This document shows positions 12,066 through 55,667 of a stretch of DNA of 64,000 bases, one piece after another. Source of the DNA: Barnesiella sp. An22. GTDB lineage: Bacteria > Bacteroidota > Bacteroidia > Bacteroidales > Barnesiellaceae. Where the stretch lies: NCBI RefSeq assembly GCF_002159975.1, contig NZ_NFJR01000001.1:1-64000 (forward strand), given 5' to 3'. Position 1 is the first letter of the stretch, and each line of letters starts with the position of its first letter. Both the position numbers and the translations under genes were made by a program. The notes beneath the pieces were generated by a model. The model was not told the origin of the DNA, searched no databases, and saw only the letters and a list, made by a program, of their open reading frames with translations.

Positions 12066-12192
12066 CAAAGATAATAAAAGGTGAGAGCAGAGGCAAATGG
12101 AAAACGCAGTTTTCAACTTTGCCTGGGCCGAGCCGCATCCTGTCTTCTTCAAAGATAGCGAAAGGTGAGAGCAGAGGCAAATGGGAAACACG
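12066..12192 (-). repeat. Promoter-bearing hairpin repeat, locus 1 (two units, minus orientation)
   Basis: One full unit (12066-12149) and a truncated one (12150 to about 12192), both facing the DUF2148-aguAB operon. The full unit has hairpin arms CAAATGGAAAAC (12094-12105) and GTTTTCAACTTTG, a -33 TTTG (12094-12097) and, 20 nt on, a -7 TATCTTTG (12066-12073). A start site near 12059 would give a leader of about 14 nt before the ATG at 12045. The second unit repeats the -7 box at 12150-12157. Confidence 0.8.
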
Positions 12193-12274
12193 GAATGTGA
12201 AAAGATGATGCGTAAAGGTCTAATTTGTTTTCGCTTTTTTACAAGTTTTCAATCACTTTTTATAAAAGATTTTC

Positions 12275-12282
12275 TATATTTG
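12275..12282 (+). promoter_or_regulatory. -7 box upstream of the small acidic protein gene
   Basis: TATATTTG in an AT-rich stretch, 47 nt before the ATG at 12330. No clear -33 TTTG at 19-21 nt. Confidence 0.4.
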
Positions 12283-12329
12283 TAAACCAAGATATGCAAT
12301 AATGTGTTCATTTGATAAATAGGAATGCC

Positions 12330-12569
12330 ATGAGTAATGATATTACAATCATATTTGATGATATTATTAAGCAATATCGCACTTTGGATTTGGCGGAAGA
12401 GATGTTTCGGTCGATGATGGAGGACGATAAGCAGTTGGAAGCCGATTATCAAGAGTGGTGCGATACGATGGGAGTCTCGGGACGAAAGGGTTTTGCTTAC
12501 TATTATGAAGAGTATCTCGAACAGCAAGATTCGGTATGGGATAGTCTCGATGATCACGATGAGAGATAG
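12330..12569 (+). CDS. Small acidic protein of unknown function
   Basis: 79 residues, strongly acidic, rich in Asp, Glu and Tyr, with predicted helices and no signal peptide or membrane segment. The ATG at 12330 is preferred to the one 18 nt upstream because it lies closer to the usual position and the next residues (MSNDITIIFDD) look like a natural N-terminus. Flanked by its own -7 box and by a separate promoter for the next gene, so probably monocistronic. I do not recognise the family. Codon use resembles the surroundings, which supports it being real. Confidence 0.6.
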   Translation: MSNDITIIFDDIIKQYRTLDLAEEMFRSMMEDDKQLEADYQEWCDTMGVSGRKGFAYYYEEYLEQQDSVWDSLDDHDER

Positions 12570-12697
12570 TCATCCGGGCAAATGAGTGCGTTTGCCCAAC
12601 CATGAAGAGGGACTGTTGTACGATTTTCTACGGGCTTTGAACGTAGAAAAATAGAGGATCGTGGGGCAATCGAGAGGGAATGAACAAAAATCTTCTT

Positions 12698-12705
12698 TAT
12701 CTTTG
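12698..12705 (+). promoter_or_regulatory. -7 box of the TlpA-like lipoprotein / MBL operon
   Basis: TATCTTTG, 20 nt before the start codon region at 12720-12726. No -33 TTTG at the expected distance. Confidence 0.5.
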
Positions 12706-12725
12706 TTCACGAGAAATCGATGTGT

Positions 12726-13898
12726 ATGAACCGAGTTTATTATTGGATAGTGCCGCTGTTGCTGTGTGCTGGTTGCCAGGGCGGCGTAGAGACTTCGTAT
12801 GTAATCGACGGGCATGTAAACAATGCCGACGCCAATGGAAATATTATCTATCTCTCTCATAGCAATGGCGACGAGCTGGTTAATCTCGACAGTGCGATTG
12901 TCGACGACGGGCTCTTTTCGTTTCGCGGTGAGCAAGAGGTGCCTATCATGGCTTATTTGCGATTCAACCGTTCGCTCGACTCGCTGGCCGTGCCGGTGCT
13001 GTTTATTCTGGAGAACGGTTCGATGGAGGCCACGATGGACACCCTGTTTTCGACCGTGACGGGTACCGAGCAAAACGAGGCTTTCGAGGCGTACAGGGTA
13101 GAGGCCCATCGGCTCGACTCGCTGCGCAACCGGTTGCATGAGCGTTATCTCGAGCAGGTGGCCGACAGCCAGATGACAGCCGAGCTCGAGTCGTCGATGT
13201 ATGGACAATATGGTCGTCTCGACGACGAGGCAACCGATCGGGCCTACCGGTTTATCCGCAAGAACCGTAATTCGCCGGCAGCACTCTGGTTGCTCGAGTC
13301 GATGCAGAGCCGTTTCAGCGAAGCCCAGTTGGAGCAGCTTCTGTCGGAGCTGGGTAGCCGCAACAAGAGTGCACAGGTGCTGACCGATATAGCTCAGCGG
13401 CTGCGCAGTGCCGATAAGATAGAGCCGGGCAGCCCGTACGTAGATGTACCGTTGGTCGATATGTGGGGGCGAAGCACCTCGCTGTCGGGCTATGTGGGGT
13501 ATGCTCGGTATGTGGTCGTGGGGTTCTGGCAAGCCGGCAGCGACCCTTCATGCCGGGCCATGGTCAAGTTGGGTGAACTGTATCGTGAGTATGGCTACCG
13601 AGGTGCAATCTTCCTGTCGGTCTCGCTCGACAGCGATGCCGAGTTGTGGCGCGAGCAGGTGCAGGCTTCGAAGTTGCCGGCCCACCAGTGTATCGCCGCC
13701 AACCCCGACGAGGTGGAGTCGCGCTATGCGCTGGCCGCGGTCCCTGCGTTTATAATCATCAATCCCGACGGGACCATAAATTCCCGCAATCTCACGCTCG
13801 AGCAGTTGGGCAGCAAGTTGCAGGAGCTGTTGCCCTATCGGATGCGTCGCGATACGGTGTCGGCCAAGTCGGACAGTTTGGCGAAAAAGAAAATATAG
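12726..13898 (+). CDS. DUF4369/TlpA-like lipoprotein with a degenerate thioredoxin active site
   Basis: About 390 residues. A lipoprotein signal ends in LLCAGC (Cys about residue 17). Residues 25-110 resemble the DUF4369 domain, residues 110-230 are helical, and 235-375 form a thioredoxin/AhpC-like domain. Where redox-active relatives have WCxxC, this protein has FWQAGSDPSC: only the second cysteine (about residue 276) remains. The cis-Pro region VPAFIIINPDG is intact. It is therefore probably not a disulfide reductase; it may bind rather than reduce a partner. It is followed 4 nt later by the MBL-fold gene. An alternative start two codons upstream (12720) is possible. Confidence 0.82.
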   Translation: MNRVYYWIVPLLLCAGCQGGVETSYVIDGHVNNADANGNIIYLSHSNGDELVNLDSAIVDDGLFSFRGEQEVPIMAYLRFNRSLDSLAVPVLFILENGSMEATMDTLFSTVTGTEQNEAFEAYRVEAHRLDSLRNRLHERYLEQVADSQMTAELESSMYGQYGRLDDEATDRAYRFIRKNRNSPAALWLLESMQSRFSEAQLEQLLSELGSRNKSAQVLTDIAQRLRSADKIEPGSPYVDVPLVDMWGRSTSLSGYVGYARYVVVGFWQAGSDPSCRAMVKLGELYREYGYRGAIFLSVSLDSDAELWREQVQASKLPAHQCIAANPDEVESRYALAAVPAFIIINPDGTINSRNLTLEQLGSKLQELLPYRMRRDTVSAKSDSLAKKKI

Positions 13899-13902
13899 GC
13901 GT

Positions 13903-14703
13903 ATGCGCATCGTATCGCTGGTAGAGAATACTACAAACTCGGAGCTGACGGCTAAACATGGCCTCTCGTTGTATATAGAGACTCGTCGGCACAGGATTTT
14001 GTTCGACTTGGGTCCCGATAATACCTTGTTTGAGAATGCCGCCAAGCGAGGCATCGATATTTCAACGGTCGATACGGTCGTCATTTCTCACGGGCACGCA
14101 GACCATGGGGGAGCTTTGAAGAAGTTTCTGGAGATAAACTCCCGGGCTGCCGTTTATGTGCAGAGAGAGGCTTTTGAACCCCATTACAGCAAGGTCTGGT
14201 TTTGCAAGGTGCCAATCGGGCTCGATCGGAGTCTGATGTCGCACCGGCAACTGGTGTTGCTGGAGGGCGATTGTACAATTGATGATGAGCTGCGGCTGTT
14301 TACCGTGAAGAGCCGGAGCGATAGATTTTACTCTCCGGCCAACCGTGTCCTCTATGATGAACGGGGGCAGGACGCTTTCGGGCACGAGCAGAACCTGATT
14401 ATCGCCGAAAACAAGATGGTCTTGATTATGGGCTGCGGCCACTCGGGCGTCGTGAATATTATGGACGTTGCGGCAAAGTATCGCCCCTCCTTGTGTGTGG
14501 GCGGTTTCCATCTGTTCAATCCCGTTACCCGGAAATCGGTACCCGAGAGTCTGCTCGACGACATAGCCGCCGAGTTGCGTGGCAAATACGCGGATACCCT
14601 GTTCTATACGTGCCACTGCACGGGAAAGCCGGCATTCGACTATTTGGCCCGGCACATGGATAATATGCACTATATCGCTTGCGGCGACACTCTTGAAATT
14701 TAG
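13903..14703 (+). CDS. MBL-fold metallo-hydrolase
   Basis: 266 residues. The metal site HGHADHGG (His63, His65, Asp67, His68) is intact, with further ligand candidates in MGCGHSGVVN and TCHCTGKPA. The overall layout matches the group annotated as dihydropterin ribofuranosylaminobenzene 5'-phosphate synthase-like hydrolases in cluster with flavoprotein-type beta-lactamase folds; substrate is not known. Cytosolic (no signal peptide). It follows the lipoprotein gene by 4 nt and likely shares its transcript, ending at the hairpin at 14729. Confidence 0.9.
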   Translation: MRIVSLVENTTNSELTAKHGLSLYIETRRHRILFDLGPDNTLFENAAKRGIDISTVDTVVISHGHADHGGALKKFLEINSRAAVYVQREAFEPHYSKVWFCKVPIGLDRSLMSHRQLVLLEGDCTIDDELRLFTVKSRSDRFYSPANRVLYDERGQDAFGHEQNLIIAENKMVLIMGCGHSGVVNIMDVAAKYRPSLCVGGFHLFNPVTRKSVPESLLDDIAAELRGKYADTLFYTCHCTGKPAFDYLARHMDNMHYIACGDTLEI

Positions 14704-14728
14704 TGAAGCATTATATGACTGCATAAAA

Positions 14729-14755
14729 AAAGCGCTCGACAGTGTCGGGCGCTTT
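14729..14755. terminator. Bidirectional terminator between the MBL and rplI genes
   Basis: Stem AAAGCGCTCGACA with TGTCGGGCGCTTT (one G-T pair), minimal loop. On the minus strand it is followed by seven T residues, so it serves the rpsF-rpsR-rplI operon best; the convergent plus-strand MBL gene ends 25 nt before it. Confidence 0.8.
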
Positions 14756-14775
14756 CCTTATTATAGATTCGTCGA

Positions 14776-15219
14776 TTATTCAGCAACGACTTCGAAGGGG
14801 ATTTCTACGCTAACCTCTTTGTGGAGTTTGATAGTAGCTTTGTAGTGGCCCACTTCTTTTACAGGGTCTTTGATAATGATTTGTTTGCGGTCTACGTTGT
14901 GGCCCAGTTTCTCGAGAGCCTCGGCGATTTGGATGTTGTTAACCGAACCGAAGATGGTACCCGTCGAGCTGGTTTTTGCACCGATGGTGAGCGATACACC
15001 TTCGAGGGCAGCAGCCAGAGCTTGAGCGTCAGCTTTGATTTTCTCGAGTTTGTGAGCACGTTGTTTCAGGTCCTCTTCACGCATTTTCAGAGCCATGGGC
15101 GAAGCGATAACAGCTTTTCCTTGGGGGATGAGGTAGTTACGACCGTATCCGCTTTTTACCGTAACGACATCGTCTTTGTAACCGAGGTTGGCGATGTCTT
15201 CTTTCAATATTACTTGCAT
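14776..15219 (-). CDS. rplI: 50S ribosomal protein L9
   Basis: 147 residues. The N-terminal signature [37 protein letters not shown] is a direct match to L9, followed by the long connecting helix (residues 45-75) and the C-terminal RNA-binding domain. It binds 23S rRNA near the L1 stalk and limits frameshifting. Last gene of the rpsF-rpsR-rplI operon, 23 nt after rpsR, with a terminator directly downstream. Confidence 0.98.
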
Positions 15220-15242
15220 GCTAAAATTCCTCCTTCGTTTAA

Positions 15243-15512
15243 TTATTTCATCAAATCAGTTACATAAGGGAGCAGCGCCAGGTGACGGGCTCTTTTCACA
15301 GCTTGTGCAATACGACGTTGAAATTTCAACGAAGTTCCTGTGATACGACGGGGCAGGATTTTGCCTTGTTCGTTCAAGAATTTTTTCAGGAATTCAGGAT
15401 CTTTGTAGTCGATATACTTGATACCGTTTTTCTTGAAACGGCAGTATTTTTTCTTTTTGATGTCAACCGACGGAGGGGTCAAATATCTGATTTCGGATTG
15501 TGCTTGTGCCAT
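15243..15512 (-). CDS. rpsR: 30S ribosomal protein S18
   Basis: 89 residues. The core [20 protein letters not shown] and the basic C-terminus [19 protein letters not shown] are diagnostic for S18. It binds 16S rRNA as a heterodimer with S6, encoded 3 nt upstream. Normal length. Confidence 0.98.
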
Positions 15513-15515
15513 TTT

Positions 15516-15875
15516 TTAGTTCTCCTTTACTTCTTCTACTTTGTTAGACGATTTAACACTTCTTCTCTTTGCAGCGTATTCGGCAGCAAATTTGTCCATT
15601 CTGAACGTCAAGAAACGGATTACACGTTCGTCACGACGGAATTGAATTTCCAGTTTGGCGATGACAGAAGGGTCGGCGTCAAATTCCAGCAGGTTGTAAA
15701 AACCGGTGGTTTTCTTTTGAATAGGATAGGCGAGCTTGCGCAATCCCCAGTTTTCCTCATTCACGATTACGGCACCTTGCTCGGTGAGAATCGTTTTGAA
15801 TTTGTCTACCGCTTCCTTCATCTGTACATCAGACAAAACGGGAGTTAAAATGAAAACGGTTTCGTAATGATTCAT
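15516..15875 (-). CDS. rpsF: 30S ribosomal protein S6
   Basis: 119 residues with the S6 start [18 protein letters not shown] and the core [12 protein letters not shown] and [11 protein letters not shown]. Partner of S18 in the platform of the 30S subunit. First gene of the operon. The leader of about 40 nt could carry S6:S18 autoregulation known in other bacteria, but I cannot identify the motif. Confidence 0.98.
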
Positions 15876-15921
15876 ACTCGTTTAGTTTAACGTATTTGGT
15901 TAATAGTTTTTATTAGCGGGG

Positions 15922-15952
15922 CAAAGGTAGAGATTATCTTGCAATTATACAA
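15922..15952 (-). promoter_or_regulatory. Promoter of the rpsF-rpsR-rplI operon
   Basis: On the minus strand TTG (15950-15952), a 20-nt spacer and TACCTTTG (15922-15929). The start site near 15915 leaves a leader of about 40 nt. Confidence 0.75.
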
Positions 15953-16010
15953 CCCTTTGCGACGGTTTTTTCTCTTTTTTCTGCCGGTGCTCGTTCAATC
16001 GGGACAAAAT

Positions 16011-17162
16011 TCAGGCTTTGGTCGACTCGTATTTTTTGTAAAAGAGGGTGAGCAGTACAAAACCGACCAGGGCGAGCGGTGCCCCGATGAGGGCGGGGTA
16101 GCGGTAGTCGAGACCAGCCTCGAGCGGCAGGCCTCCCAGGAAGGCTCCGATGGCATTCCCCAGGTTGAAGGCTACCTGCACGCAGGCGGCACCCAGCAGC
16201 TCGCCACCCTTGGCAAAGTGAATGATTGAGATTTGCTGAGGGCTCGACACGGCAAAGAGTCCGGCGGTGCACAGGCACATGAGCAGTACGGTGAGCCATC
16301 CGACAGGAGCCGCGAAAAAGATGGCGAGCAGGGCCATGAAGAGCAGCAGTTGGGTGTAGGCAGCCACGCGGCCGGGGGTGTAGATATCCGACAGGCGTCC
16401 GCCCAACAGATTGCCTACCACCATGCCGAATCCGGCCAGCACCATCAGCAGGGTGACACTTTCGGTCGGGAAGCCCGAGACTTGGGTGAGCAGCGGGTTG
16501 ATGTAGCTGTACCAGCAGAACACGCCGCCGTTGCCCAGCATGGTGGCTCCCAGGATGAGCCAGGGGGCTTTGGTCTTCAAGAAACGGAACTGTCCTTTGA
16601 ATCCCGTGTCGGGCAATCCCTCGACCTGAGGTACCCACTTCCAGATGTAGTAGAGCACGATGAGGCCCCACACACCCACCAGCAGGAAGGTGAGCCGCCA
16701 CGAGAGCAGCGTGCTGAGCGAGGTGCCCAGCGGTACCCCGAAGAGGTTGGCGATGGTCATGCCGGCAATCATAATCGAGACCGCCTCCGAGCCCTTCCCT
16801 TTATCGGCCAGCTTCTCGGCCACAATCGACGCTACCCCGAAGTAGGCTCCGTGGGGGAGCCCCGAGATGAACCGGGCCATCATCATGGTCCAGTAGTTGG
16901 GGGCCAGCGAGGCAAACAGGTTGCCGGCCATCATCACGGCTACCAGACCGAGCAGGATATTTTTCAACGGCAGTTTGCGGGCCATGGTCAGAAGGGGAGC
17001 TCCGGCACATACGCCCAGAGCGTAGGCCGAAATCAAATGGCCGGCCGTAGGAATAGTGATGTGTAGATCGGCGGCTATGTAGGGGAGGATAGCCATCATG
17101 ACAAACTCGGCGATTCCAAGCCCCAATGTGCCGAACGCCAATGCAATAAGACTCTTTTTCAT
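16011..17162 (-). CDS. MFS transporter, AraJ-like exporter
   Basis: 383 residues, 12 predicted membrane helices starting with MKKSLIALAFGTLGLGIAEF. The motif between helices 2 and 3 (GAPLLTMARKLPLKN) and the FISGLPHGAYFGVASIVAEKLA segment are typical of the DHA1 group that includes AraJ. Such proteins export sugars or drugs by proton antiport across the inner membrane. Start at 17162 chosen because upstream in-frame sequence is non-hydrophobic and contains the promoter region. Monocistronic; no clear terminator. Confidence 0.92.
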   Translation of the reverse strand: MKKSLIALAFGTLGLGIAEFVMMAILPYIAADLHITIPTAGHLISAYALGVCAGAPLLTMARKLPLKNILLGLVAVMMAGNLFASLAPNYWTMMMARFISGLPHGAYFGVASIVAEKLADKGKGSEAVSIMIAGMTIANLFGVPLGTSLSTLLSWRLTFLLVGVWGLIVLYYIWKWVPQVEGLPDTGFKGQFRFLKTKAPWLILGATMLGNGGVFCWYSYINPLLTQVSGFPTESVTLLMVLAGFGMVVGNLLGGRLSDIYTPGRVAAYTQLLLFMALLAIFFAAPVGWLTVLLMCLCTAGLFAVSSPQQISIIHFAKGGELLGAACVQVAFNLGNAIGAFLGGLPLEAGLDYRYPALIGAPLALVGFVLLTLFYKKYESTKA

Positions 17163-17231
17163 ACGATACCTTAATAACCTATTGAACGCAGGGAGCAACC
17201 TGCCCGGGCAGACCCTCCCTGAAAATCGGGT

Positions 17232-17263
17232 GCAAAGGACGCAAAATCTTGCGGGTTGTACAA
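17232..17263 (-). promoter_or_regulatory. Possible promoter of the AraJ-like MFS gene
   Basis: On the minus strand a TTTG, a 20-nt spacer and GTCCTTTG. The -7 box departs from TAnnTTTG at its first two bases. It lies about 70 nt upstream of the ATG. Confidence 0.4.
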
Positions 17264-17307
17264 ACTTTGTGTCTCTTTTTTTTGCCAGGGGAACAGGCAT
17301 AAAAAAA

Positions 17308-17336
17308 CCGCTGCCTTTTTGTGCAAAAGGTAGCGG
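17308..17336 (-). terminator. Terminator of the hsp20 gene
   Basis: A 12-bp stem with one mismatch (CCGCTGCCTTTT with AAAAGGTAGCGG), 5-nt loop, followed on the minus strand by seven T residues (17301-17307). It lies 28 nt after the Hsp20 stop codon. Confidence 0.85.
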
Positions 17337-17364
17337 CCTTGCTGGGGATTGCTCCCGAAATTGT

Positions 17365-17793
17365 TTACTTAACTTCGATCGATTTTCTTACACCGGCATT
17401 GTTTTCAACAGGCAGTTTGGGAAGTTCGACCGACAAAACGCCATGTTCGACATGAGCCGAAATTTTGTTTTTGTCGACATCGTCGGGCAGAATCATGGTC
17501 TGCTGGAATTTCGAATAAGAGAATTCGCGACGCAGATAGTGCTCTTTCTTCTTTTCGTCTTTGTTTTCGATTTTCTTCTCCATCGTGATTACGAGGTTGT
17601 CGTTCTCATCGACGTGAACTTGGAAATCGTCTTTCGTCATACCCGGAGCAGCCACTTCTACGCAGTAGTCGTTTTCATGTTCGATCACATTGATGGCAGG
17701 TGCTGTAGCATTGGCTTTTTCCATCCATTCATTATCAAAGAAATCATTGAAAATGTCGGGCAACCAACCTTGGTTTTTTCTCATGGGTACCAT
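17365..17793 (-). CDS. Hsp20/alpha-crystallin small heat shock protein
   Basis: 142 residues. The alpha-crystallin domain runs from about residue 40 to 130 (VEVAAPGMTKDDFQVHVDEN to GVLSVELPKL), with the C-terminal GVLxxxLPK motif and an N-terminal arm with WLPDIFNDFFD. It is an ATP-independent holdase that forms oligomers in the cytosol. Start at 17793 has a GGAG nearby; a second Met four codons later is possible. No CIRCE or HrcA-like inverted repeat is seen upstream. Confidence 0.95.
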   Translation of the reverse strand: MVPMRKNQGWLPDIFNDFFDNEWMEKANATAPAINVIEHENDYCVEVAAPGMTKDDFQVHVDENDNLVITMEKKIENKDEKKKEHYLRREFSYSKFQQTMILPDDVDKNKISAHVEHGVLSVELPKLPVENNAGVRKSIEVK

Positions 17794-17885
17794 AATTATA
17801 ATCTCCTATCTTTAAGTTGTTTATTATCTGTTTTGCTTTCGGCTCTCTTTCGATTACCGAAATCACCTATCTACTTGCAAAGGGT

Positions 17886-17905
17886 GTGCCAATACCCTTT
17901 GGCAC
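17886..17905. promoter_or_regulatory. Inverted repeat GTGCCAA-N6-TTGGCAC between hsp20 and MATE genes
   Basis: A perfect 7-bp inverted repeat with a 6-nt centre, about 95 nt upstream of the hsp20 start and about 125 nt beyond the MATE stop. Such a dyad is a reasonable operator for hsp20, but no regulator is known and there is no recognisable -7 box beside it. Confidence 0.35.
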
Positions 17906-17934
17906 CTGTTTTGCCCCGGATGTGGTGACAAGAG

Positions 17935-18015
17935 TGCGCCGAAGTGGACAGACTTGCGCCGAAGTGGCCTATTTGTCACATCGGGTGCGAGGCTCGTAAG
18001 GTTCGGGTGCGAGGC
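17935..18015. repeat. Two pairs of short tandem repeats
   Basis: TGCGCCGAAGTGG occurs at 17935-17947 and 17955-17967 (20-bp period) and TCGGGTGCGAGGC at 17981-17993 and 18003-18015 (22-bp period). They lie just past the MATE gene stop. No coding or terminator role is visible. Confidence 0.65.
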
Positions 18016-18031
18016 CTCGGACGGCAGAGTC

Positions 18032-19381
18032 TCACCGCCTTCTCCGGCGATACAGGCACATGCCGTAGATGATTGTCGAGGTAAGTGCTTCGGTCACCGG
18101 CATGGCCAGCCACATACCAGTGGTTCCCCACACGGCGGGGAGCAGGTAGAAGCATGGAATGAGGAGGATTACACCGCGCATCAGCACAAACAGAATCGAC
18201 TCTCTTATCCGTTCCAGACTCTGGAAGTAGCCGATGACAGCCACGTTGGCAATGAAAAAGACGGTGCCTGTACCCAGGTAGGGAAATCCCGCCGTAGCTA
18301 TTCTTCCGGCTTGGCTCTGGGTGTCGACAAACAGCCCTACCAGTTCTCGTGGAAACAGAATAAACAGCAGCGACAGGCACACGCCGAACAGGGTTGCCGT
18401 GCGCAACAGCAGGCGGCGGGTCTCTCTCACTTTGTGCCAGAGGCCGGTGCCGTAGTTGTAGCTGATGATGGGTTGGGCCGACTGGGCTATGGCATTTCCG
18501 ATCATGAAGAAGAAGGGGGCATAGTAGCAGGCAATGCCAAAAGCGCCCACGCCCGAATCGCCCAGATAGTGCATAAACTGCCAGTTGCCTATGTAGATAA
18601 AGATGGCCATTGTCAGTTCGCCCAGCAGCGACGACAAGCCTATCTTGCACTGGTAGCCGAGGTTTCGGCCGGCCAGGCAGAGGCTCTTGACGCTTGTTTT
18701 CAAGGCGATTATGCGTAGCGACCGGCCCATGAATAGCAGATAGTACAAGGCCATGACACCGCCGGCCATAATGCTGAGGGTAGTGGCTATTGCCGCCCCT
18801 TTTACTCCCATGCCAAGGGGGAAGATGAAGAGCCAGTCGAGCACGATATTCAGCAGGGCCGGCACAATGTTGCACCACATGGCAAAGCGGGGTGAGCCAT
18901 CGAGGCGGATAATGAAGAGCCCTATCAGCATCCAGGTCTGGAAGACAAAGGCCGGCATAATCCATTGCAGGTAGTCGAGAACTTGCGGCATCAGGCTCTC
19001 CGACGAGCCCAGCAGCCGGGCCGTCTCGGCCGGGAATATCAGTACCAGCACCGTGAGTACGGTTATAAACAAGGTAGTCGCCAGCAGGGCTTGGGAAATG
19101 TTGAGCCGGGCAGTCTTCACCTTTTTATAAGAGAGGTGAATGGACGATACTACCGAGCAGCCGGAGCCGATCATGAGCCCCAGGCCGGCTACGAATTGGT
19201 AGATGGGAACGACCAGGTTTACGGCGGCAACCCCGTCGGCACCGGTGCCGTGCCCTACAAAGATACCGTCGATAGTACATACAGCCGACATGGCGAACGA
19301 ACCCAGCAGGGTGGGAATCAGTAGTTTGCGGAAGAGTGTGGCGACAGGCTCTTTCTGAAAGTCGATAGCGTCTCGGTTCAT
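18032..19381 (-). CDS. MATE family efflux transporter
   Basis: 449 residues with 12 predicted membrane helices and the twofold MATE repeat (LLIPTLLGSFAMSAVCTIDGIFVGHGTGADGVAAVN in the first half). MATE proteins export cationic drugs or metabolites using Na+ or H+. It starts 167 nt from the divergently transcribed AraC-type regulator, which suggests the regulator controls it. -7 box TACCTTTG at 19419-19426. Confidence 0.93.
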   Translation of the reverse strand: MNRDAIDFQKEPVATLFRKLLIPTLLGSFAMSAVCTIDGIFVGHGTGADGVAAVNLVVPIYQFVAGLGLMIGSGCSVVSSIHLSYKKVKTARLNISQALLATTLFITVLTVLVLIFPAETARLLGSSESLMPQVLDYLQWIMPAFVFQTWMLIGLFIIRLDGSPRFAMWCNIVPALLNIVLDWLFIFPLGMGVKGAAIATTLSIMAGGVMALYYLLFMGRSLRIIALKTSVKSLCLAGRNLGYQCKIGLSSLLGELTMAIFIYIGNWQFMHYLGDSGVGAFGIACYYAPFFFMIGNAIAQSAQPIISYNYGTGLWHKVRETRRLLLRTATLFGVCLSLLFILFPRELVGLFVDTQSQAGRIATAGFPYLGTGTVFFIANVAVIGYFQSLERIRESILFVLMRGVILLIPCFYLLPAVWGTTGMWLAMPVTEALTSTIIYGMCLYRRRRR

Positions 19382-19418
19382 ACAAGCAGAGTTGTGTTTG
19401 TGGGTCTTTTACGAGGGG

Positions 19419-19426
19419 CAAAGGTA
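19419..19426 (-). promoter_or_regulatory. -7 box of the MATE gene
   Basis: TACCTTTG on the minus strand, 38 nt upstream of the ATG; no convincing -33 TTTG, consistent with an activated promoter. Confidence 0.5.
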
Positions 19427-19514
19427 GTGAGATGTATCTTCCCGGAGGGGAGCAGAACCCCGACAAGTAGGGTACTTTTCCGAACAAAATGGGGCGTAAG
19501 TTGGGGAAATACCC

Positions 19515-19522
19515 TATTTTTG
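19515..19522 (+). promoter_or_regulatory. -7 box of the AraC-type regulator gene
   Basis: TATTTTTG, 27 nt upstream of the ATG at 19549; the -33 TTTG is missing. It is about 90 bp from the divergent MATE -7 box, so one operator could serve both. Confidence 0.45.
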
Positions 19523-19548
19523 CATCTCAGAAAGGTATTTTTCAATAT

Positions 19549-20403: not shown

Positions 20404-20410
20404 GCGACCG

Positions 20411-20637
20411 GGGCCGGAAAAAGTCCGGGCGAGCTTGTTTCTCTGCATTCACCTTTCAGTATCTTTTACTAAGACAGGAGGCGGTTTGGCATAGTCAAAT
20501 TTGAAAACGTGGTTTTCATTTGCCTTTGCAATCTTCTTTCGCTATCTTTGTTACACGAAGACAGGAGGCGGCTCGGCATGGTCAAATTTGAAAACAAAGT
20601 TTTCATTTGCCACTGCTCTCGCCTTTCACTATCTTTG
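20411..20637 (+). repeat. Promoter-bearing hairpin repeat, locus 2 (two full units and one decayed)
   Basis: A decayed unit (about 20411-20467, ending TATCTTTT) precedes two full units (20468-20550 and 20551-20637). In both, GACAGGAGGCGG and TCGGCAT-like sequence leads into hairpin arms CAAATTTGAAAAC and GTTTTCATTTG. The right arm ends in the -33 TTTG (20519-20522; 20606-20609), followed after 20 nt by TATCTTTG (20543-20550; 20630-20637). Transcription from the last unit would start near 20644, 17 nt before the sdaA ATG. Confidence 0.85.
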
Positions 20638-20660
20638 TATTTACATTATACATAAATGAG

Positions 20661-32424: not shown

Positions 32425-32506
32425 TACCTTTGAGGTGAGCAGAGATTGAGCAAACGGGAAAAACGGAGTTTTTCGTTTGCCTCTATGTCCATTTTCACTA
32501 CCTTTG
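32425..32506 (+). repeat. Promoter-bearing hairpin repeat, locus 3 (single unit)
   Basis: Hairpin arms GCAAACGGGAAAAAC (32450-32464) and GTTTTTCGTTTGC (32468-32480) pair with a 2-nt bulge. The right arm contains the -33 TTTG (32476-32479); after 19 nt comes TACCTTTG (32499-32506). The left flank AGGTGAGCAGAGA matches the inverse of the usual right flank, making this copy nearly palindromic. It drives the DHA2 exporter gene. Confidence 0.75.
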
Positions 32507-47848: not shown

Positions 47849-47865
47849 GGTCGTTTCATATTTCC

Positions 47866-48035: not shown

Positions 48036-48299
48036 TTAGCGAAACCGTTTGAACAGACGGAATATTCGTGATACCAGTCGGAATCCCCACATGGCGCTCT
48101 CGAGCAGGGTGACACCGCCGAGCAGGTTGCTGCCGATGTATTTGGTAATTGATCGAGCTTCGGTAAAGGGCGAGATGACCTGTCGATAAGCCTCGTCGAC
48201 ACACTTTCGTTGTTCGGCAATAGCCGTTTTCAGGGCTTGTCGTCGAGCGGCAATCTCTTCGAGGGTAAGACCTTTGGATGGGGTTTTCGGTGTATCCAT
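48036..48299 (-). CDS. Small protein (87 aa) of the envelope trio, unknown family
   Basis: 87 residues. Starts 1 nt after the holin-like gene stop, so translation is coupled. A charged helical N-terminus (LEEIAARRQALKTAIAEQR) precedes a short, only moderately hydrophobic C-terminal helix (SNLLGGVTLLESAMWGFRL) and a basic end. Possibly a membrane-associated partner of the holin-like protein. I do not recognise a named family. Confidence 0.7.
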   Translation of the reverse strand: MDTPKTPSKGLTLEEIAARRQALKTAIAEQRKCVDEAYRQVISPFTEARSITKYIGSNLLGGVTLLESAMWGFRLVSRIFRLFKRFR

Positions 48300-48300
48300 G

Positions 48301-48660
48301 TTATTGAGGAGTTTTGTCGTTATCTAATAGTACGCGCGAAATGAATCGGGTGATGGGGGCGAGGATGAGTTGCCGTTTGAAGATGACTACAATGGCAATG
48401 AGCACCAGGAACAGCGCACCGAGCAGGGCATAGCTGCCCACGATGCCCACGAGCGGTTCCAGCAGATAGACCAGGGCAAACGACAGGTATATGCCGGCCC
48501 CTACGGCCAGAACCAGAATGATGATAAAGAGTACCGACATGCCCAGAATGACCGAAATCTTTTCGGTGGCCGTCAGTTTGGCATAGTCGATTTGCAGGGT
48601 GAGGTATTTTTTACCTTCGTCGAATAGTCGCTTGAATGAGTTGTCGGGGGTATCGGGCAT
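48301..48660 (-). CDS. Phage holin superfamily / YqjE-like membrane protein
   Basis: 119 residues with two transmembrane helices (about 37-60, LGMSVLFIIILVLAVGAGIYL, and 75-100, VGSYALLGALFLVLIAIVVIF) and a cytosolic amphipathic N-terminus (LTLQIDYAKLTATEKISVI). This matches the YqjE/phage_holin_3-like family that sits beside YtxH and small stress proteins; it is not a lytic phage gene. Part of a three-gene envelope-stress cluster with the YtxH protein (48766-48969) and the 87-aa protein. Confidence 0.82.
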   Translation of the reverse strand: MPDTPDNSFKRLFDEGKKYLTLQIDYAKLTATEKISVILGMSVLFIIILVLAVGAGIYLSFALVYLLEPLVGIVGSYALLGALFLVLIAIVVIFKRQLILAPITRFISRVLLDNDKTPQ

Positions 48661-48765
48661 AATATAGCAGGGTTAGAGGAGATACATAAGGTATAGATAC
48701 ACAATGAGAGTATCAAGACTACCGAAGGTCTGTCTTGATATTCCCATTGTGGTAACGGGCGCAGT

Positions 48766-48969
48766 CTATTTTACGCCTTTCACTTCTTCGGCAATCTGGT
48801 CGACGAGTTGCTCCATCTCTTCTTTCTTCAGGTGGATACCCTTGTCGTGAAGCATTTTACAGATGCGAGCTCTCATGTCCGAGCCCTTTTCGGGGGCAAA
48901 CAAGATGCCGGCCACAGCACCCACGGCGGCTCCGCCGAGGAATGCAAACAGTAAATTAAGACCTTTCAT
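48766..48969 (-). CDS. YtxH domain protein
   Basis: 67 residues with a single glycine-rich membrane helix (LLFAFLGGAAVGAVAGILFAP) followed by a charged helix, as in YtxH stress proteins. The frame is open further upstream to 49041, but the ATG at 48969 lies 28 nt below a TATCTTTG box and has the family N-terminus (MKGLNLL). A 105-nt gap separates it from the holin-like gene. Confidence 0.85.
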   Translation of the reverse strand: MKGLNLLFAFLGGAAVGAVAGILFAPEKGSDMRARICKMLHDKGIHLKKEEMEQLVDQIAEEVKGVK

Positions 48970-48997
48970 AATCTTTATCGTTTTTAATGTGACTATA

Positions 48998-49005
48998 CAA
49001 AGATA
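48998..49005 (-). promoter_or_regulatory. -7 box of the YtxH gene
   Basis: TATCTTTG on the minus strand, 29 nt upstream of the ATG. No -33 TTTG at the usual distance. Confidence 0.5.
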
Positions 49006-49120
49006 ACAAAGTATTTGGATTTTTGTTAGTCTGCGCGCCAAAGATTTTCGCTTTTATGAATTGTTTTACAAAAAAGTATAAAGGATAGAAGCGGGCCGAA
49101 TCACGAATGGCGAAAGTTCG

Positions 49121-49359
49121 TATCTTTGCTTGATGCGAAGATACGATACGGCTCGGCCAAGCAAATTGTGCAAGCATCTTTGCTTGTCTCTCGCCTTTCA
49201 CTATCTTTCCAGAAGATAGGATGCGGCTCGGCCAAGCAAATTGTGCAAGCATCTTTGCTTGTCTCTCGCCTTTCACTATCTTTCCAGAAGATAGGATGTG
49301 GCTCGGCAAAAAAACTCAAACAAGTTTGGCTTTTTTGCTCTCGCCTTTCACTATCTTTG
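49121..49359 (+). repeat. Promoter-bearing hairpin repeat, locus 4 (three tandem 75-bp units) upstream of uvrA
   Basis: Three units of exactly 75 bp: 49134-49208, 49209-49283 and 49284-49358. The first two share arms CAAGCAAA and TTTGCTTG; the third has a different arm pair, CAAAC/GTTTG flanked by A and T runs, so pairing is kept while sequence changes. -7 boxes: TATCTTTG at 49121-49128, TATCTTTC at 49202 and 49277, and TATCTTTG at 49352-49359 (the box nearest uvrA). The internal boxes have lost the final G. Leader to the uvrA ATG about 90 nt. Confidence 0.88.
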
Positions 49360-49456
49360 CACTCACTTTGCCGGGCCGGGCGCGACCTCATGGGGCAACG
49401 CATCGGGAGGCATGTCGAAAAAGCAACAAAGGAACCAAAAGTTATTTCCGGGAACT

Positions 49457-52246
49457 ATGTCTGAACAGTCAATCTTTATCAAAGGGGCACGCGTCAACAA
49501 TCTGAAGAATATCGATATAGAGATACCTCGCAACCGCTTTATCGTCATTACGGGCCTGTCGGGCTCGGGCAAGTCGTCGCTGGCGTTCGATACGCTCTAT
49601 GCCGAGGGGCAGCGGCGCTATGTCGAGAGTCTCTCGGCCTACGCCCGCCAGTTTCTGGGTCGGATGAGCAAGCCCGAGTGTGACTACATCAAGGGCATAC
49701 CGCCAGCCATCGCTATCGAGCAGAAGGTCAACACCCGCAATCCGCGCTCGACGGTGGGCACCTCGACCGAGATATACGACTACCTGCGGTTGCTCTATGC
49801 CCGCATCGGCAAGACCTATTCGCCCATCTCGGGCGAACTGGTCAAGAAGCACCAGGTCGACGATGTGGTGAACTGTGCCCTCGGTTTCCCCGACGGTACC
49901 CGCTTTGCCTTGCTTACCAACCTGATTCTCCCCGAGGGGCGCGACCTGAAAACCCAGTTGCAGATATGGCAGAAGGAGGGTTTTCCGCGTGTCGAGGTCG
50001 AGGGCCGCTTCGTGGCGATAGAAGATTTGCTGGCCGGCGATACGCTGCCCGATGCGTCGAAGGTGCGCCTGGTAATCGACCGCTTGAGCGTGTCGCACGA
50101 GAACGATACCGTGAGCCGACTGGCCGACTCGGTCGAGACCGCCTTCTTCGAAGGGGGTGGGGAGTGCGTCGTACAGATGCACACGGCCGAAGGGGTGAAA
50201 GAGTTCCATTTTTCGAAACGGTTCGAGGCCGACGGCATCACCTTCAACGAGCCGAGCGACCTGATGTTCAACTTCAACAACCCCGTGGGCGCTTGTCCCG
50301 AGTGCGAAGGCTTCGGGCGGGTAATCGGTATCGACGAAGATCTGGTGGTGCCCAACAAGACCCTCTCGGTCTACGACGATGCGGTGATGTGCTGGCGGGG
50401 CGAGAAGATGAGCGAGTGGAAAAACGACCTTATCCGTCGGGCCGATTCGTTGCACTTCCCGATACATCGGCCCTACTACAAACTGACCGATCGCGAGAAA
50501 GATATATTGTGGCACGGCTCGGGCGACTTCGAGGGCATCGACGGTTTCTTTGCCATGCTCGAGGCCAATCAGTACAAGATACAATACCGGGTGATGCTCG
50601 CCCGCTATCGGGGCAAAACCATCTGTCCGGTGTGCAAGGGCAGCCGGTTGAAACCCGAGGCCGAATATGTGAAGGTGGGTGGCCGCTCCATTACCGAGCT
50701 GGTGAATCTGCCGGTAGGCGAACTGAAAGCCTTCTTCGACAACCTGCAGCTCGACGAGCACGACACGGCTATTGCCAAGCGATTGCTCACCGAAATCAAG
50801 AACCGTATCCGTTTCTTGCAGGAGGTGGGGCTCGACTACCTCACTCTCAATCGGTTGTCGTCGACTCTCTCGGGTGGTGAAAGCCAACGCATCAATCTGG
50901 CTACTTCGCTGGGCAGCAGTCTGGTAGGCTCGCTCTATATCCTCGACGAGCCCAGCATCGGCCTCCATTCGCGCGACACGCACCTGCTCATCAAGGTGCT
51001 CCGCGAGTTGCAGGAGCTGGGCAACACGGTGGTTGTGGTCGAACACGACGAGGAGATTATCCGGGCGGCCGACTACATTATCGACATCGGTCCGTTGGCC
51101 GGTCGGTTGGGCGGCGAGGTGGTCTATCAGGGCGACCTTTCGCGTCTGCCCAAGGCGACCCGCAGCTACACCATGCGCTACCTGACGGGCGAGTGCAAGA
51201 TAGAGGTACCGGCCGTACGTCGCAAGTGGAACCAGTATATCGAGGTCGAAGGGGCTGCCCAGAACAACCTGAAGTCGGTCAATGTGCGGTTCCCGCTCCA
51301 TGTAATGACCGTGGTTACCGGCGTGAGCGGCTCGGGCAAGTCGTCGCTCGTGCGCGATGTATTCTATCGTGGACTCTTGCGCTATTATGGCGAGGGGGGC
51401 GAGATGCCGGGAACCTACTCCCGCTTCACGGGCGATATGGACCGCATCAAGGCGGTTGAGTTTGTCGACCAGAATCCTATCGGCAAATCGACCCGTTCCA
51501 ATCCCGCCACCTATTTGAAGGCGTTCGACGAGATACGCAAGCTCTTTGCCGACCAGCAGGGGGCTAAGCAGATGGGCTTTTCGCCGTCGTACTTCTCGTT
51601 CAACTCCGAGGGTGGCCGCTGCGAAGAGTGCAAGGGCGAGGGTACCATCACGGTCGAGATGCAGTTCATGGCCGACATCGTGCTGGAGTGCGAGGCTTGC
51701 CATGGCAAACGCTATAAACAAGATGTACTTGAAATCGAGTATCGGGGCAAAAACATAAGCGATGTGCTCGACATGACCATCAACCAGGCCATCGAGTTCT
51801 TCTCCGAGGTCGACGGCAGTCAGGAGAAGCGTATCGTCAAACGGCTGAAACCGTTGCAGGATGTGGGGCTGGGGTATATCAAGCTGGGGCAATCGTCATC
51901 GACCCTCTCGGGCGGTGAGAACCAGCGTGTGAAGTTGGCTTTCTTCCTCAGCAACGAACGGCAGGAGCCCACGCTCTTCATCTTCGACGAGCCCACTACG
52001 GGGCTCCATTTCCACGACATCAACACGCTGCTGAAGTCGTTCAACCAACTGATTGAGCGGGGGCACACCGTGGTGATTATCGAGCACAACATGGACGTCA
52101 TCAAGTGTGCCGACCACATTATCGACCTGGGCCCCGAAGGGGGCAAGGCCGGTGGCTACGTGGTATGTACAGGCACACCCGAAGAGGTGGCCCGTTGCGA
52201 GGCCTCCTATACGGGCAGATTCCTGAAAGAGAAGTTGGCGCTTTAG
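49457..52246 (+). CDS. uvrA: Excinuclease ABC subunit A
   Basis: 929 residues with two ABC ATPase cassettes: Walker A GLSGSGKS (33-40) and a second GVSGSGKS near 620, signature LSGGESQR and LSGGENQR, and zinc-finger Cys motifs [31 protein letters not shown]. It recognises bulky DNA damage with UvrB. The start at [10 protein letters not shown] is used; the longer open frame upstream translates only the leader. The stop codon overlaps that of DUF4293. Confidence 0.96.
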
Positions 52247-52740
52247 CGGATGCGGTCCATGCTGCGCACCAGTTGCTCGTCTTTGTTGATGGCGCGATAG
52301 GCCAGAATGTCGAGCACGAGTGCTACGAACGGCATCACAAGATAGGCCGACCACGACGTGTGCGTAGCGGCAAGGTCGTTCTGGAAGGTGTAACCGCTCA
52401 AGAAAATGATGATGTAGAAGGTCACCATAAAGAAGGCGTTGATCATGCAGACGCGAGCCTGGTTGGGCCGGTTCTTGTACAGGAAGATGGCGACGAGCGA
52501 CAGTACGGTAATGACAGCACCCAATGCCAATACACCCCACGTGGCCGTGAATACCGAGGTTTGGGCAATTGTAGCTTCGGACCCGTCCGTAGCCGGTTCG
52601 GCCATTACGGTAGATACCCCTTGCGAGGTGAAGCTGTAAAGTCCGTCGGGGGTATCGAACTGAGCGATGGGACAGAAAAGGAACGTGGCCATCAGGGCGG
52701 CGGCCAGCAGCAGGTAAATAGTTTGAATACGTTGTATCAT
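52243..52740 (-). CDS. DUF4293 family membrane protein
   Basis: 165 residues with four predicted membrane helices (MIQRIQTIYLLLAAALMATF, then about 62-82, 90-110 and 125-145), the conserved start MIQRIQT of the family, no known function. The stop codon TAA shares two bases with the uvrA stop (convergent, 4-bp overlap). Its upstream sequence is full of promoter repeats on both strands. Start at 52740 rather than the upstream in-frame Met. Confidence 0.88.
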   Translation of the reverse strand: MIQRIQTIYLLLAAALMATFLFCPIAQFDTPDGLYSFTSQGVSTVMAEPATDGSEATIAQTSVFTATWGVLALGAVITVLSLVAIFLYKNRPNQARVCMINAFFMVTFYIIIFLSGYTFQNDLAATHTSWSAYLVMPFVALVLDILAYRAINKDEQLVRSMDRIR

Positions 52741-53214
52741 AGCTTGTTTATATGTTTTGTTATTTGTAGAAGACAGGATGCGTCTCGGTATGAAAATCAA
52801 GCGAGCTCGTTTTTCGGTTTCCGACTTTCTCTATCTTTATGCAAAGATAATGAAAGGTGAGCGCAGAGGCAAATGGAAAACGAAGTTTTCAACATTTGTC
52901 TATGCCGAACCGACTCCTATCTTATCCAAAGATAAAAAAAGGTGAACGCAGAAAGTCAAGTTTACTTGAACTTTATGCTGAACCATATCTTATCTTCTAC
53001 AAAGATAGTGTAAAGCCATTGTAGAAACAAATTTTGAAAGATTGAGATTTTGCAGATAACTCTCTTTAAGGAGGAAAGTGTATTCGAGCATGCGGGTATG
53101 TGCCGCAAGGTAAGGGCAATAGGAAAATGATTTTTCCCGGCACACTATTTGCAAGTTAAGTTTGTTATATTGGAGAAAGCTCCTTAATTTTACTACGGAT
53201 TTAGAATAGAACAG
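52741..53214. other. Intergenic region with head-to-head promoter repeats
   Basis: About 470 bp without a gene. It holds the repeat cluster described separately (52769-53007); the stretch 53008-53214 carries no clear box (the DNA upstream of the TPR gene is AT-rich) and I see no other gene. Confidence 0.6.
52769..53007 (-). repeat. Promoter-bearing hairpin repeat, locus 5 (inverted pair plus extra units)
   Basis: A plus-oriented unit (52769-52839, -7 TATCTTTA) meets two minus-oriented units (52842-52926 and 52927-52999) and a fragment (-7 at 53000-53007). The facing -7 boxes form the palindrome TATCTTTATGCAAAGATA. The first minus unit has -33 TTTG (52870-52873), a 20-nt spacer and TATCTTTG (52842-52849), so it drives DUF4293. 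Arms differ between units: CGAGCTCG in the plus unit, GAAAAC/GTTTTC in the first minus unit, CAAGT/ACTTG in the second. Confidence 0.85.
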
Positions 53215-55440
53215 ATGATTACGACCGAGATTGAAAAACAGCGACACGAAATATATGGACTGTTGGCCGAGCGCCGTTTGAAGGATGCCTTTGGCAAGCT
53301 GGCCGTTCTGGTGAACGAATTGCAAGATTGGATCAGCCGTGACAAACTCAACGAGATGGAGATGTCGTACAAGTATATGATACAGTACATGCTCGACGGA
53401 GTGGAAGATCCTGAGCGCAAACGTATCTACGACCACCTGGTGGTGTCGGCCTATATGCTCACCGACCGCGTGTCCGACGAACTGGTTGCCCGGGTCTCTC
53501 CGTCCCAGTATTACGGTTGGCGCCGCTATGTGAAAGCCAGTAGGGCCAACGAGACTCTGGCCTCGCAGTGCGACCGATGTGACCAGGCGCTCAACGACCT
53601 GTCGCTGGCCTCGCTGCTGAGCGAGCAGGAACGCGATGCCGCCAAAATCAAATCGTTGAAGCATCGGGTCGAGGATGAAGCCGGCACGCTCTTTATGGAT
53701 GTGTGGACCAACTATCCGGCACGAGAGGAGGATTATTCCACCTTGCGCGAGGCGCTTTATGCCAATCGTTTCCCCGACGACCTGGTGTCGCTGCTGATTT
53801 CGGCCCTGTTGCTGAATCTGCTGCATCGGTTCGACGAGGAGAAACTGCTTCTTCTCCTCGACGGTTATCGGCACATCTCGCCCGAGATACAGTTGCGTTC
53901 ACTCTGTGCCGCCCTCATGGTGATGTATATCTATCGCGAGCGGTTGCCGCTCTTTCCGAGTGTGCAGCATCGCATCGACGCCTTGAGCGAGGAGCCTCGT
54001 TTCAAGAACGACGTGCGCACGGTCTTTCTGCAACTGATTAAAACCCAGGAGACCGAGAAGATTACCCGCAAGATGACCGAGGAGCTGCTCCCCGAGATGA
54101 TGAAATTGGGCCCGTCGCTCTATAAGAAAATCAAACAGGAGGACTTGATGAACGACATCAATGCGCTCGAGGAGAATCCCGAGTGGCAGGATATGCTCGA
54201 CAAGACGGGCATTGCCGACAAACTGAAAGAGTTGACCGACCTGCAGATGGAGGGGGCCGATGTCTTTATGAGCACCTTCTCGCATTTGAAGAGCTTCCCC
54301 TTCTTCCAGTCGATACAAAACTGGTTCATGCCCTTCAATCCCGACCACACGGCTCTCTCGGGTCTGCTCGAGGGGCAGGGGGGCGCCATGTTCAAGAAGA
54401 TGCTTTCGGCTTCGTCGCTCTTGTGCAACTCCGACAAGTATTCGTTCTGCCTCAGTCTGTCGCAAGTGCCCGAGTCGCAACGTCAGTTGATGATGGGGCA
54501 GTTTGGGGCCGAGAACGCCGCCGTGCAGGAGATGGCCAACCAGGAGCTGATGAAGAAGGAACTGAGTCGCGAGAATATCTCGAACCGGTACATTCAGGAT
54601 TTGTATCGCTTCTTCAAACTCTATATCCGTCGGTCGGAGTTTACCGACCCCTTTGCCGGACACATCAACCTGCTGCATGTCTCTACGCTCGAGTCGCTGT
54701 TGAGCGGGCAGGAGAGCCTGCGGCTCATCGGCGAATATTATTTCCGTCGCGGGTATTACGACGATGCGCTCGAACTCTTCGAACGGCTCTCGGCTACCTA
54801 TCACTCCGATGCCGAGATATACCAGAAGATAGGGTTCTGCTACCAGAAGCAGGGCGACTATGCCGAGGCGCTCGAGGCCTTCCTCAAGGCCGAGATTATC
54901 GCCCCCGACAACTTCTGGACCATCCGGCGCATTGCTACCTGCTACCGTAATCTGAAGAAGCCCGAGATGGCCCTCTCGTATTACCATCGGGCCGAAAAGA
55001 TACAGCCCGACAATCTGTCGGTGCAGATGAACATAGGCCATTGCTATGTCGAGCAGAAAGATTATGAGGAGGCTCTGAAGTATTACTTCAAGGTCGACTA
55101 TCTCGACCCCGACGGCGGGAAGGCCTGGCAACCCATTGCCTGGTGCTCGTTCCTGGTGGGGAAGAAGGATCAGGCGCGCCGCTATTACGAGAAGATTCTG
55201 GCCGGGAAGCCCACGGCACTCGACTATCTCAATGCCGGGCATGTGGAGTTTTCGCTGGGTCATATCCGGCAGGCCATCGATTACTATCGCCGCAGCATCG
55301 AGCTCGACGGGGGCGATACCGCCAAGTTTATGGCCAACTTCAAGCAGGATGTGCCCGATCTCGTAGCCTCGGGCATTGCCGCGAGTGATATACCCATTTT
55401 GCTCGACCAGCTGATGTATGGCATTACCGATACCCATTAA
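53215..55440 (+). CDS. Large tetratricopeptide repeat protein, cytosolic
   Basis: 741 residues without signal peptide or membrane helix. The N-terminal half is all-helical and unassigned. From about residue 500 at least five TPR-like repeats follow, for example YDDALELFERLS, YAEALEAFLKAEIIAPDN, EMALSYYHRAEKIQPDN, YEEALKYYFKVDYLDPDG, RQAIDYYRRSIELDGGD. Proteins of this kind scaffold other proteins; the target is unknown. Transcribed away from the DUF4293 gene. Confidence 0.88.
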   Translation: MITTEIEKQRHEIYGLLAERRLKDAFGKLAVLVNELQDWISRDKLNEMEMSYKYMIQYMLDGVEDPERKRIYDHLVVSAYMLTDRVSDELVARVSPSQYYGWRRYVKASRANETLASQCDRCDQALNDLSLASLLSEQERDAAKIKSLKHRVEDEAGTLFMDVWTNYPAREEDYSTLREALYANRFPDDLVSLLISALLLNLLHRFDEEKLLLLLDGYRHISPEIQLRSLCAALMVMYIYRERLPLFPSVQHRIDALSEEPRFKNDVRTVFLQLIKTQETEKITRKMTEELLPEMMKLGPSLYKKIKQEDLMNDINALEENPEWQDMLDKTGIADKLKELTDLQMEGADVFMSTFSHLKSFPFFQSIQNWFMPFNPDHTALSGLLEGQGGAMFKKMLSASSLLCNSDKYSFCLSLSQVPESQRQLMMGQFGAENAAVQEMANQELMKKELSRENISNRYIQDLYRFFKLYIRRSEFTDPFAGHINLLHVSTLESLLSGQESLRLIGEYYFRRGYYDDALELFERLSATYHSDAEIYQKIGFCYQKQGDYAEALEAFLKAEIIAPDNFWTIRRIATCYRNLKKPEMALSYYHRAEKIQPDNLSVQMNIGHCYVEQKDYEEALKYYFKVDYLDPDGGKAWQPIAWCSFLVGKKDQARRYYEKILAGKPTALDYLNAGHVEFSLGHIRQAIDYYRRSIELDGGDTAKFMANFKQDVPDLVASGIAASDIPILLDQLMYGITDTH

Positions 55441-55529
55441 AGGTTGTCGGGTAGAAAGAGCTGGGGAATGCTGCCGGTATCTCAGATTGTAGAGTATTCT
55501 CTTTTTGATGTATAGCTTGAGAGAAGATG

Positions 55530-55667
55530 GAGTGTGAAAAGTCCGTTTTCATTTGTCTCTGCTCTCACCTTTTCCTATCTTTGAATAAGATAGGGGCGGT
55601 TCGGCATAGCCAAAAGATGAAAACTTTGTTTTCTTTTTGTCTCTGCTCTCACCTTTTACTATCTTTG
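55530..55667 (+). repeat. Promoter-bearing hairpin repeat, locus 6 (two units)
   Basis: Unit 1 (to 55583): GAAAA/GTTTTC arms, TTTG at 55552-55555, 20-nt spacer, TATCTTTG 55576-55583. Unit 2 (55584-55667): CAAAAGATGAAAAC arm and GTTTTCTTTTTG arm, TTTG 55636-55639, 20-nt spacer, TATCTTTG 55660-55667. A start near 55674 leaves a short leader before the ATG at 55691/55697. Confidence 0.88.

Follow-up and report, generated by a model that had tools for sequence, protein, structure and literature searches.

The first 64,000 nucleotides of contig NZ_NFJR01000001.1 of Barnesiella sp. An22 (hereafter the window) contain, in front of genes such as uvrA and sdaA, units of a short dispersed hairpin repeat that fits the description of a small gene-less insertion element better than that of an amplified promoter cassette. 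In the account that we consider likely as a whole, the element targets the -7 box of Bacteroidetes-type promoters and would insert directly 3' of TATCTTT, after which the terminal TATCTTT of each copy would be completed to TATCTTTG by the native G and leader. The gene would thus retain its promoter and original start region, upstream control DNA being displaced by about 80 bp per unit, and the new box would itself be a target for further units, which would explain the growth of arrays.

Architecture and copy number of the repeat

Units were identified with a covariance model, R1, built on 81 positions from 34 units of the An22 genome (G000; 3.35 Mb in 56 contigs), including several units of the window; the first genome-wide query was the unit at window positions 20557-20637. 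Ten strong units, all with E <= 3.8e-9, were found by R1 over the whole window. At least 132 R1 matches of about 71-90 bp (E <= 0.01) were present in the An22 genome among the best 150 of 1984 candidates scored, and at least 81 in G001, one of eight same-genus relatives (G001-G008), among the best 150 of 1804 candidates scored. In 166 kb of scanned sequence enriched for units, 113 right-end matches scored 9 or more as opposed to none scoring 8 or more in one mononucleotide shuffle, while the left end was less clean, with 92 matches scoring 10 or more compared with 3 in the shuffle. Rfam models detected only a tRNA in the window, with no match to the repeat, and no description of such a family was found in the open-access PMC literature.

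Alignment of units indicated a length of about 71-83 bp and an inner hairpin between the two ends. From 5' to 3', a unit comprises a left end, [GT]AAGATAGG, a flank, ATGCGGCTCGGCA, the variable inner hairpin, a second flank, CTGCTCTCGCCTTTCAC, and the box TATCTTT, which is followed mostly by G in the last unit of an array. The termini are inverted (AAGATAG and CTATCTT) and covary, the right terminus being the box itself, and a full unit is predicted to fold into one long imperfect hairpin. The inner hairpin varies, with 66 distinct longest helices among 148 units, and is only moderately stronger than shuffled sequences, with a mean z of -1.8 and with 32 of the 148 units lying below each of their 60 shuffles. 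Among 55 distinct pairs of box and left end, 34 wobble pairs were counted for the lower strand and 25 for the upper, a split that does not clearly favour either as the hairpin-forming strand.

Promoter boxes and orientation of units

The layout of the units agrees with the Bacteroidetes promoter consensus of TAnnTTTG at -7 and TTTG near -33 given in PMC7366714, in support of the first-pass annotation, which had described a dispersed promoter-bearing hairpin repeat. Its further claim that the element carries a complete promoter holds for most units. A sigma-ABfr-type -33/-7 arrangement, with TTTG 19-21 nt before the box, was seen in 100 of 148 distinct full units from two genomes but not in the remaining 48; in most units the right arm of the inner hairpin carries the -33-like TTTG.

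The genome-wide search returned many copies that face start codons, and the earlier impression that units are mostly aimed at the next gene was upheld. Among 112 array groups from An22 and G001, 104 were directed towards the next gene, 1 was opposed, 3 were inside a called gene and 4 had no gene called, two of these eight non-facing groups being the CRISPR cases described below. The last -7 box lay a median of 35 nt ahead of the start called for the gene, genes and starts being taken for this count from our own simple codon-usage gene finder. The units face genes, in our account, because the element would insert in promoter -7 boxes. Left-end and array counts for these two genomes refer to stretches around most R1 or query matches rather than to whole genomes. 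In these stretches, a -7-like 8-mer was present within 12 nt upstream of 144 of 165 left ends, 103 of the 144 following another unit, and upstream of 41 of the 62 left ends that were first in an array, compared with 9.7% of random positions. Position 8 of the box was G in 101 of 110 terminal boxes and 50 of 97 internal boxes, as expected if the terminal G belongs to the native leader and an upstream copy takes the first base of the element.

Empty and filled promoters in related genomes

Comparison of An22 with G001-G008 indicated that empty orthologous sites carry a single -7 box of the usual kind, either TATCTTTG or a variant of it, whereas units at filled sites lie directly 3' of the native box, with the TATCTTTG of the last unit continuing into the native leader. 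The native box is thus followed at once by a unit and the last box by the native leader, and it is from these comparisons that insertion position, the restored box and self-targeting are deduced. The restored box presumably drives transcription, and the gene probably keeps its on-switch after insertion.

The uvrA and sdaA promoters were both filled in An22, G002, G003 and G006 and empty in G001, G004, G005, G007 and G008. At uvrA, the lone box of the empty G001 site was found in GTATCTTTGCAGTCGCTTTG while the filled An22 site consisted of GTATCTTTG, three units and CTATCTTTGCACTCACTTTG. The promoter of the prmA group was empty in the same five relatives and filled in An22, G003 (with a worn right end) and G006, with no box recognised in G002, and the DUF4293 promoter was filled in An22 only, no unit being present in 8 of 8 relatives. 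Upstream of a gene at 44 kb of contig C12, G002-G007 were empty, G001 and G008 had one worn unit and An22 had two, with the variant box of the empty sites in G003, G004 and G007, TATTTTTG, appearing on both sides. In a comparison of the DUF2148 promoter among seven relatives (G003 left out), G001 and G008 were empty, G002, G004 and G005 had units, and G006 and G007 were worn or unclear.

When 69 array groups of An22 were compared with 43 groups of G001, at least 17, including two short matches, had a counterpart at the same downstream gene, a lower bound as about 12 weaker G001 clusters were left out. Of these 17, 14 promoters occupied in both genomes were compared, and the number or class of units differed between the two species; at C11:4604 and C11:1861, a TATATTTG box was present in both. 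Variable occupancy between species together with the small number of common groups has the appearance of turnover, not of a conserved regulon, and units may still be moving.

The first-pass annotation had proposed an amplified promoter cassette that wires housekeeping genes to a common input. Although conserved promoter parts and the 104 of 112 array groups that face genes would fit such a cassette if it were kept by selection, orthologous loci without units hold a native -7 box at the same spot, where the units of other species are inserted, and not only occupancy but also unit number and hairpin class differ between species; in addition, the targets include a CRISPR repeat and the promoter of a tRNA gene. 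We therefore regard a shared input as very unlikely. The repeat family and its promoter had been read correctly, but the cause is insertion into existing promoters.

Units in a CRISPR repeat and before a tRNA gene

In G001, the unit at C1:573352-573432 (positions 953-1033 of locus L232) splits a CRISPR repeat after TATCTTT. The repeat hit by this unit contains the -7 box TATCTTTG; the intact repeats after it (12 listed, Rfam CRISPR-DR49) read ...TTTGTATCTTTGACTTATTAAATACAGC, and the split repeat ends in ...CACTATCTTTGACTTATTAAATACAGC. A unit of a different hairpin class occupies the matching CRISPR spot of the An22 genome on contig C25 (L212, G000:C25:5452-5523). At about positions 1473-1600 of L181 (G149:C16), a unit lies just before a tRNA-Gly gene predicted by ARAGORN. 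Direct repeats of about 28 nt, in which the -7 box and the 5' end of the tRNA are both contained, lie on either side of this unit; the duplicated core may be longer in this family.

Agreement between unit ends

The left end of a unit is the complement of the unit's own terminal box, and its complementarity to the target box is less strict. Among 152 full units from 92 arrays, the base at box position 5, a free position of TAnnTTTG, paired with the opposite left-end base in 17 of 17 units with A (A-T), 6 of 8 with T (T-A) and 110 of 127 with C (C-G). When one unit per array was counted, 17.0 of 19.0 arrays with a base other than C agreed, compared with 2.8 after permutation (maximum 8 in 2000). 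At the same position, left ends of internal units agreed with their own right end in 88 of 99 cases and with the upstream box in 86 of 99, the corresponding values for first units with a recognised upstream box being 35 of 37 and 27 of 37; pairing is thus firmest within the unit. Where the loop between box and left end was long, it was itself a palindrome in 8 of 13 distinct cases, as compared with a mean of 0.9 and a maximum of 6 after shuffling. A single variant subfamily was rejected as the source of covariation because many A- and T-type units were nearest to C-type units of other arrays, although some clustering was seen as well, of C17 with C3 and of several G001 units.

Candidate modes of movement

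The covarying ends would lend themselves to a natural test of DNA-guided insertion. According to PMC5934647, IS608 inserts 3' of a fixed short sequence that is retained in its left flank, and its guide pairs with this sequence and with the cleavage sites. The repeat resembles IS200/IS605 elements such as IS608 in that it enters 3' of a fixed sequence which remains on its left, and in hairpins near its ends, but differs from them in that it is only about 80 bp long, has no gene, carries a 7-nt box complement as opposed to the 4-nt guide of IS608 and has a second box at its right end. By analogy, we tentatively suggest that the left end, AAGATAG, serves by base pairing as a guide for both the target box and the right end of the same unit, with an enzyme acting in trans. 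The more general proposition, that these Bacteroidales elements of about 80 bp choose targets by pairing, with a 7-nt left-end guide that matches both the right end and the -7 box, change guide, right end and target in concert (C, A or T at the free box position) and survive by rebuilding the promoter into the next landing site, is offered as a rather speculative one.

Several observations weigh against insertion and restoration guided by pairing. Besides the 48 units that lack TTTG at the expected spacing, no upstream box was recognisable for 21 of the 62 left ends that were first in an array, and the left end agreed with the upstream box in only 4 of 12 first units with a non-C box. Poorer agreement with the upstream box than with the unit's own right end weakens the idea of a guide. 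The right-hand box may be either a copy of the target or part of the element itself. No enzyme that mobilises the units was found, and the transposase domain Y1_Tnp (PF01797) was absent from 19 of 26 carriers, another difference from IS200/IS605.

Absence of Y1_Tnp from these carriers and from the An22 genome also led to rejection of an origin from repetitive extragenic palindromic (REP) sequences mobilised by a REP-associated tyrosine transposase (RAYT) of the same genome. High-copy intergenic hairpins, often in arrays, would suit such an origin, but PF01797 was present in only 1 of 11 carriers (G006) in one set as opposed to 24 of 30 other genomes and in 6 of 21 carriers in a second set, five of them with 7 or fewer listed units, and we consider a REP-like element extremely unlikely.

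Many short gene-less copies with terminal inverted repeats are also typical of miniature inverted-repeat transposable elements (MITEs). Were the repeat a conventional MITE mobilised by a DDE transposase that duplicates a 7-bp target (TATCTTT) and strongly prefers -7 boxes, this would account for the two box copies that flank each unit, for the variant box on both sides at the C12 site and for the A/A boxes seen at three sites of single or first units, although the right-hand box of an apparent duplication may be the element's own. However, this explanation, which appears doubtful to us, leaves the box-complementary left end (3-9 nt inside the element, variants included) unexplained, and no longer element bearing a transposase was seen in the stretches read, where no dedicated search for one was made.

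Movement by a tyrosine recombinase of the CTnDOT type, with box and left end as inverted half-sites, is suggested by the spacing of these half-sites, which are 4-10 nt apart, and by an exchange point directly after TTT. With GTANNTTTGC as its target core, CTnDOT would come close to the -7 consensus, and it is this core alone that suggests CTnDOT in particular. The second half-site was not seen in empty sites and half-sites bound by protein need not covary, so that a recombinase of this type seems unlikely.

Relation to known repeats and significance

Correia/NEMIS and BOX elements are, like the present repeat, short, abundant and hairpin-forming and can carry promoters, but they are not known to follow a rule for entering and rebuilding a -7 box. 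Some integrative elements restore the tRNA gene that they enter by bringing a copy of the displaced part. The repeat follows the same logic but restores a promoter box, with a length of about 80 bp and more than 100 copies. Its target rule is both unusual and well supported. BrickBuilt and other MITEs of Porphyromonas gingivalis, also gene-less intergenic repeats in a member of the Bacteroidales, are described in the accessible part of PMC4596501 as having promoter activity in E. coli; BrickBuilt differs in its internal 23-nt tandem repeats and its at least 19 numbered copies, and insertion in -7 boxes is not mentioned in that part of the source.

If insertion and restoration is the correct account, dozens of promoters of a single genome have been rewritten by an inconspicuous repeat, as judged from the 69 array groups read in An22, and a genetic parasite can live where a gene is most sensitive by bringing along what it breaks. 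Differences between sister species upstream of uvrA, sdaA and other ordinary genes would be explained, and caution would be needed before such repeats are taken for regulons. Filled and empty promoters provide a natural promoter-swap series.

Distribution across genomes

In a sample of Bacteroidales, with 15 or fewer of the best candidates scored per genome, R1 matches with E <= 1e-6 were present in at least 21 of 295 genomes, representing 13 of 183 genera and 12 family labels. A class-wide sample gave matches in 5 of 295 genomes, four of them in Bacteroidales (An22 included) and the fifth with one weak match, and a search with a single unit gave matches in 9 of 9 genomes of the genus (An22 included) and 2 of 32 others. 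The UvrA relatives of the An22 genome point to the order Bacteroidales. Among 80 UvrA loci on named contigs, L051 had a clear unit before its own uvrA while L077 and L073 gave weak matches. The array at L077 has diverged but follows the same plan, and in both of the latter loci (L077 60-260, L073 1-110) longer palindromes (TATCTTTGAGCTAAAGCTCGAAGATA) lie between box and left end; these arrays are perhaps part of a wider superfamily of box-embedded hairpins. Units of other Bacteroidales families, for example L170, L176, L179, L188 and L196, keep, as judged by eye, both the plan and the agreement of ends.

Viral carriage was considered from 21 IMG/VR stretches with an exact 16-nt match, but none of the 21 was confirmed by R1 and the matches are thus probably due to chance. 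Unit-like stretches were noted in three unverified phage scaffolds and in one plasmid record; a record called a Phocaeicola massiliensis plasmid (OY726013.1:16434-16515, L281 2501-2582) contains one of 89% identity.

Features of the window

The first-pass annotation had listed six loci with about 13 units. Five loci were clear by R1, and the sixth, at 32425-32506, was marginal and is possibly, at best, a decayed unit. Besides the ten strong units, one worn unit and one remnant were recognised (Table 1), and two stretches counted earlier as units turned out to be native promoter sequence: the only sdaA promoter of G008 aligns with 20411-20467, and the -7 box native to DUF4293 stands at 53000-53007. 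Since a plus-strand unit and minus-strand units face each other at 52769-53007, not every copy aims at a gene.

Table 1. Units, remnants and native promoter elements in the window (genomes named are relatives of An22)
Feature	Position	Strand	Score or comparison
Full unit, last of array facing DUF2148-PAD_porph-CN_hydrolase genes (Pfam names)	12066-12147	-	R1 80.1 bits; native box only in G001, G008
Right-half unit remnant	12150-12192	-	Right-end match; R1 match 12150-12230, 14.5 bits, E 0.58
Native sdaA promoter, not a unit, ending in changed box TATCTTTT	20446-20467	+	Aligns with single G008 promoter
Full unit in sdaA promoter	20470-20550	+	R1 82.0 bits; unit-free site in G001, G004, G005, G007, G008
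Full unit, last before sdaA	20557-20637	+	R1 96.4 bits
Marginal match before MFS transporter gene	32431-32506	+	R1 16.5 bits, E 0.17
Native uvrA -7 box TATCTTTG	49121-49128	+	Alone in G001, G004, G005, G007, G008
First unit in uvrA promoter; left end AAGATAC complements native GTATCTT	49137-49209	+	R1 59.9 bits
Second unit in uvrA promoter, box TATCTTTC	49212-49284	+	R1 69.1 bits
Last unit in uvrA promoter; its TATCTTTG continues into native leader	49287-49359	+	R1 75.0 bits; empty orthologous sites
Unit facing minus-strand array; box TATCTTTA	52769-52839	+	R1 45.7 bits
Last unit in DUF4293 promoter	52842-52924	-	R1 90.9 bits; unit-free in 8/8 relatives
First unit in DUF4293 promoter	52927-52997	-	R1 62.2 bits
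Native DUF4293 -7 box TATCTTTG	53000-53007	-	Alone in 8/8 relatives
Worn unit without clear left end	55518-55583	+	R1 27.0 bits, E 3e-4
Last unit before prmA-transglycosylase gene group (Pfam names)	55586-55667	+	R1 81.0 bits; empty in G001, G004, G005, G007, G008

Between the orthologues of DUF4293 and the TPR gene, about 1.3 kb of extra DNA was present in G005 only (L135, G005:C24), the interval being 1612 nt as compared with 229-299 nt in the others. Elsewhere in the window, 21-nt direct repeats occur within a probable coding region at 142-282, and neighbouring genes that are probably paralogous subunits have a 75-nt stretch in common at 59618-59692 and 61589-61663, with 87% identity.

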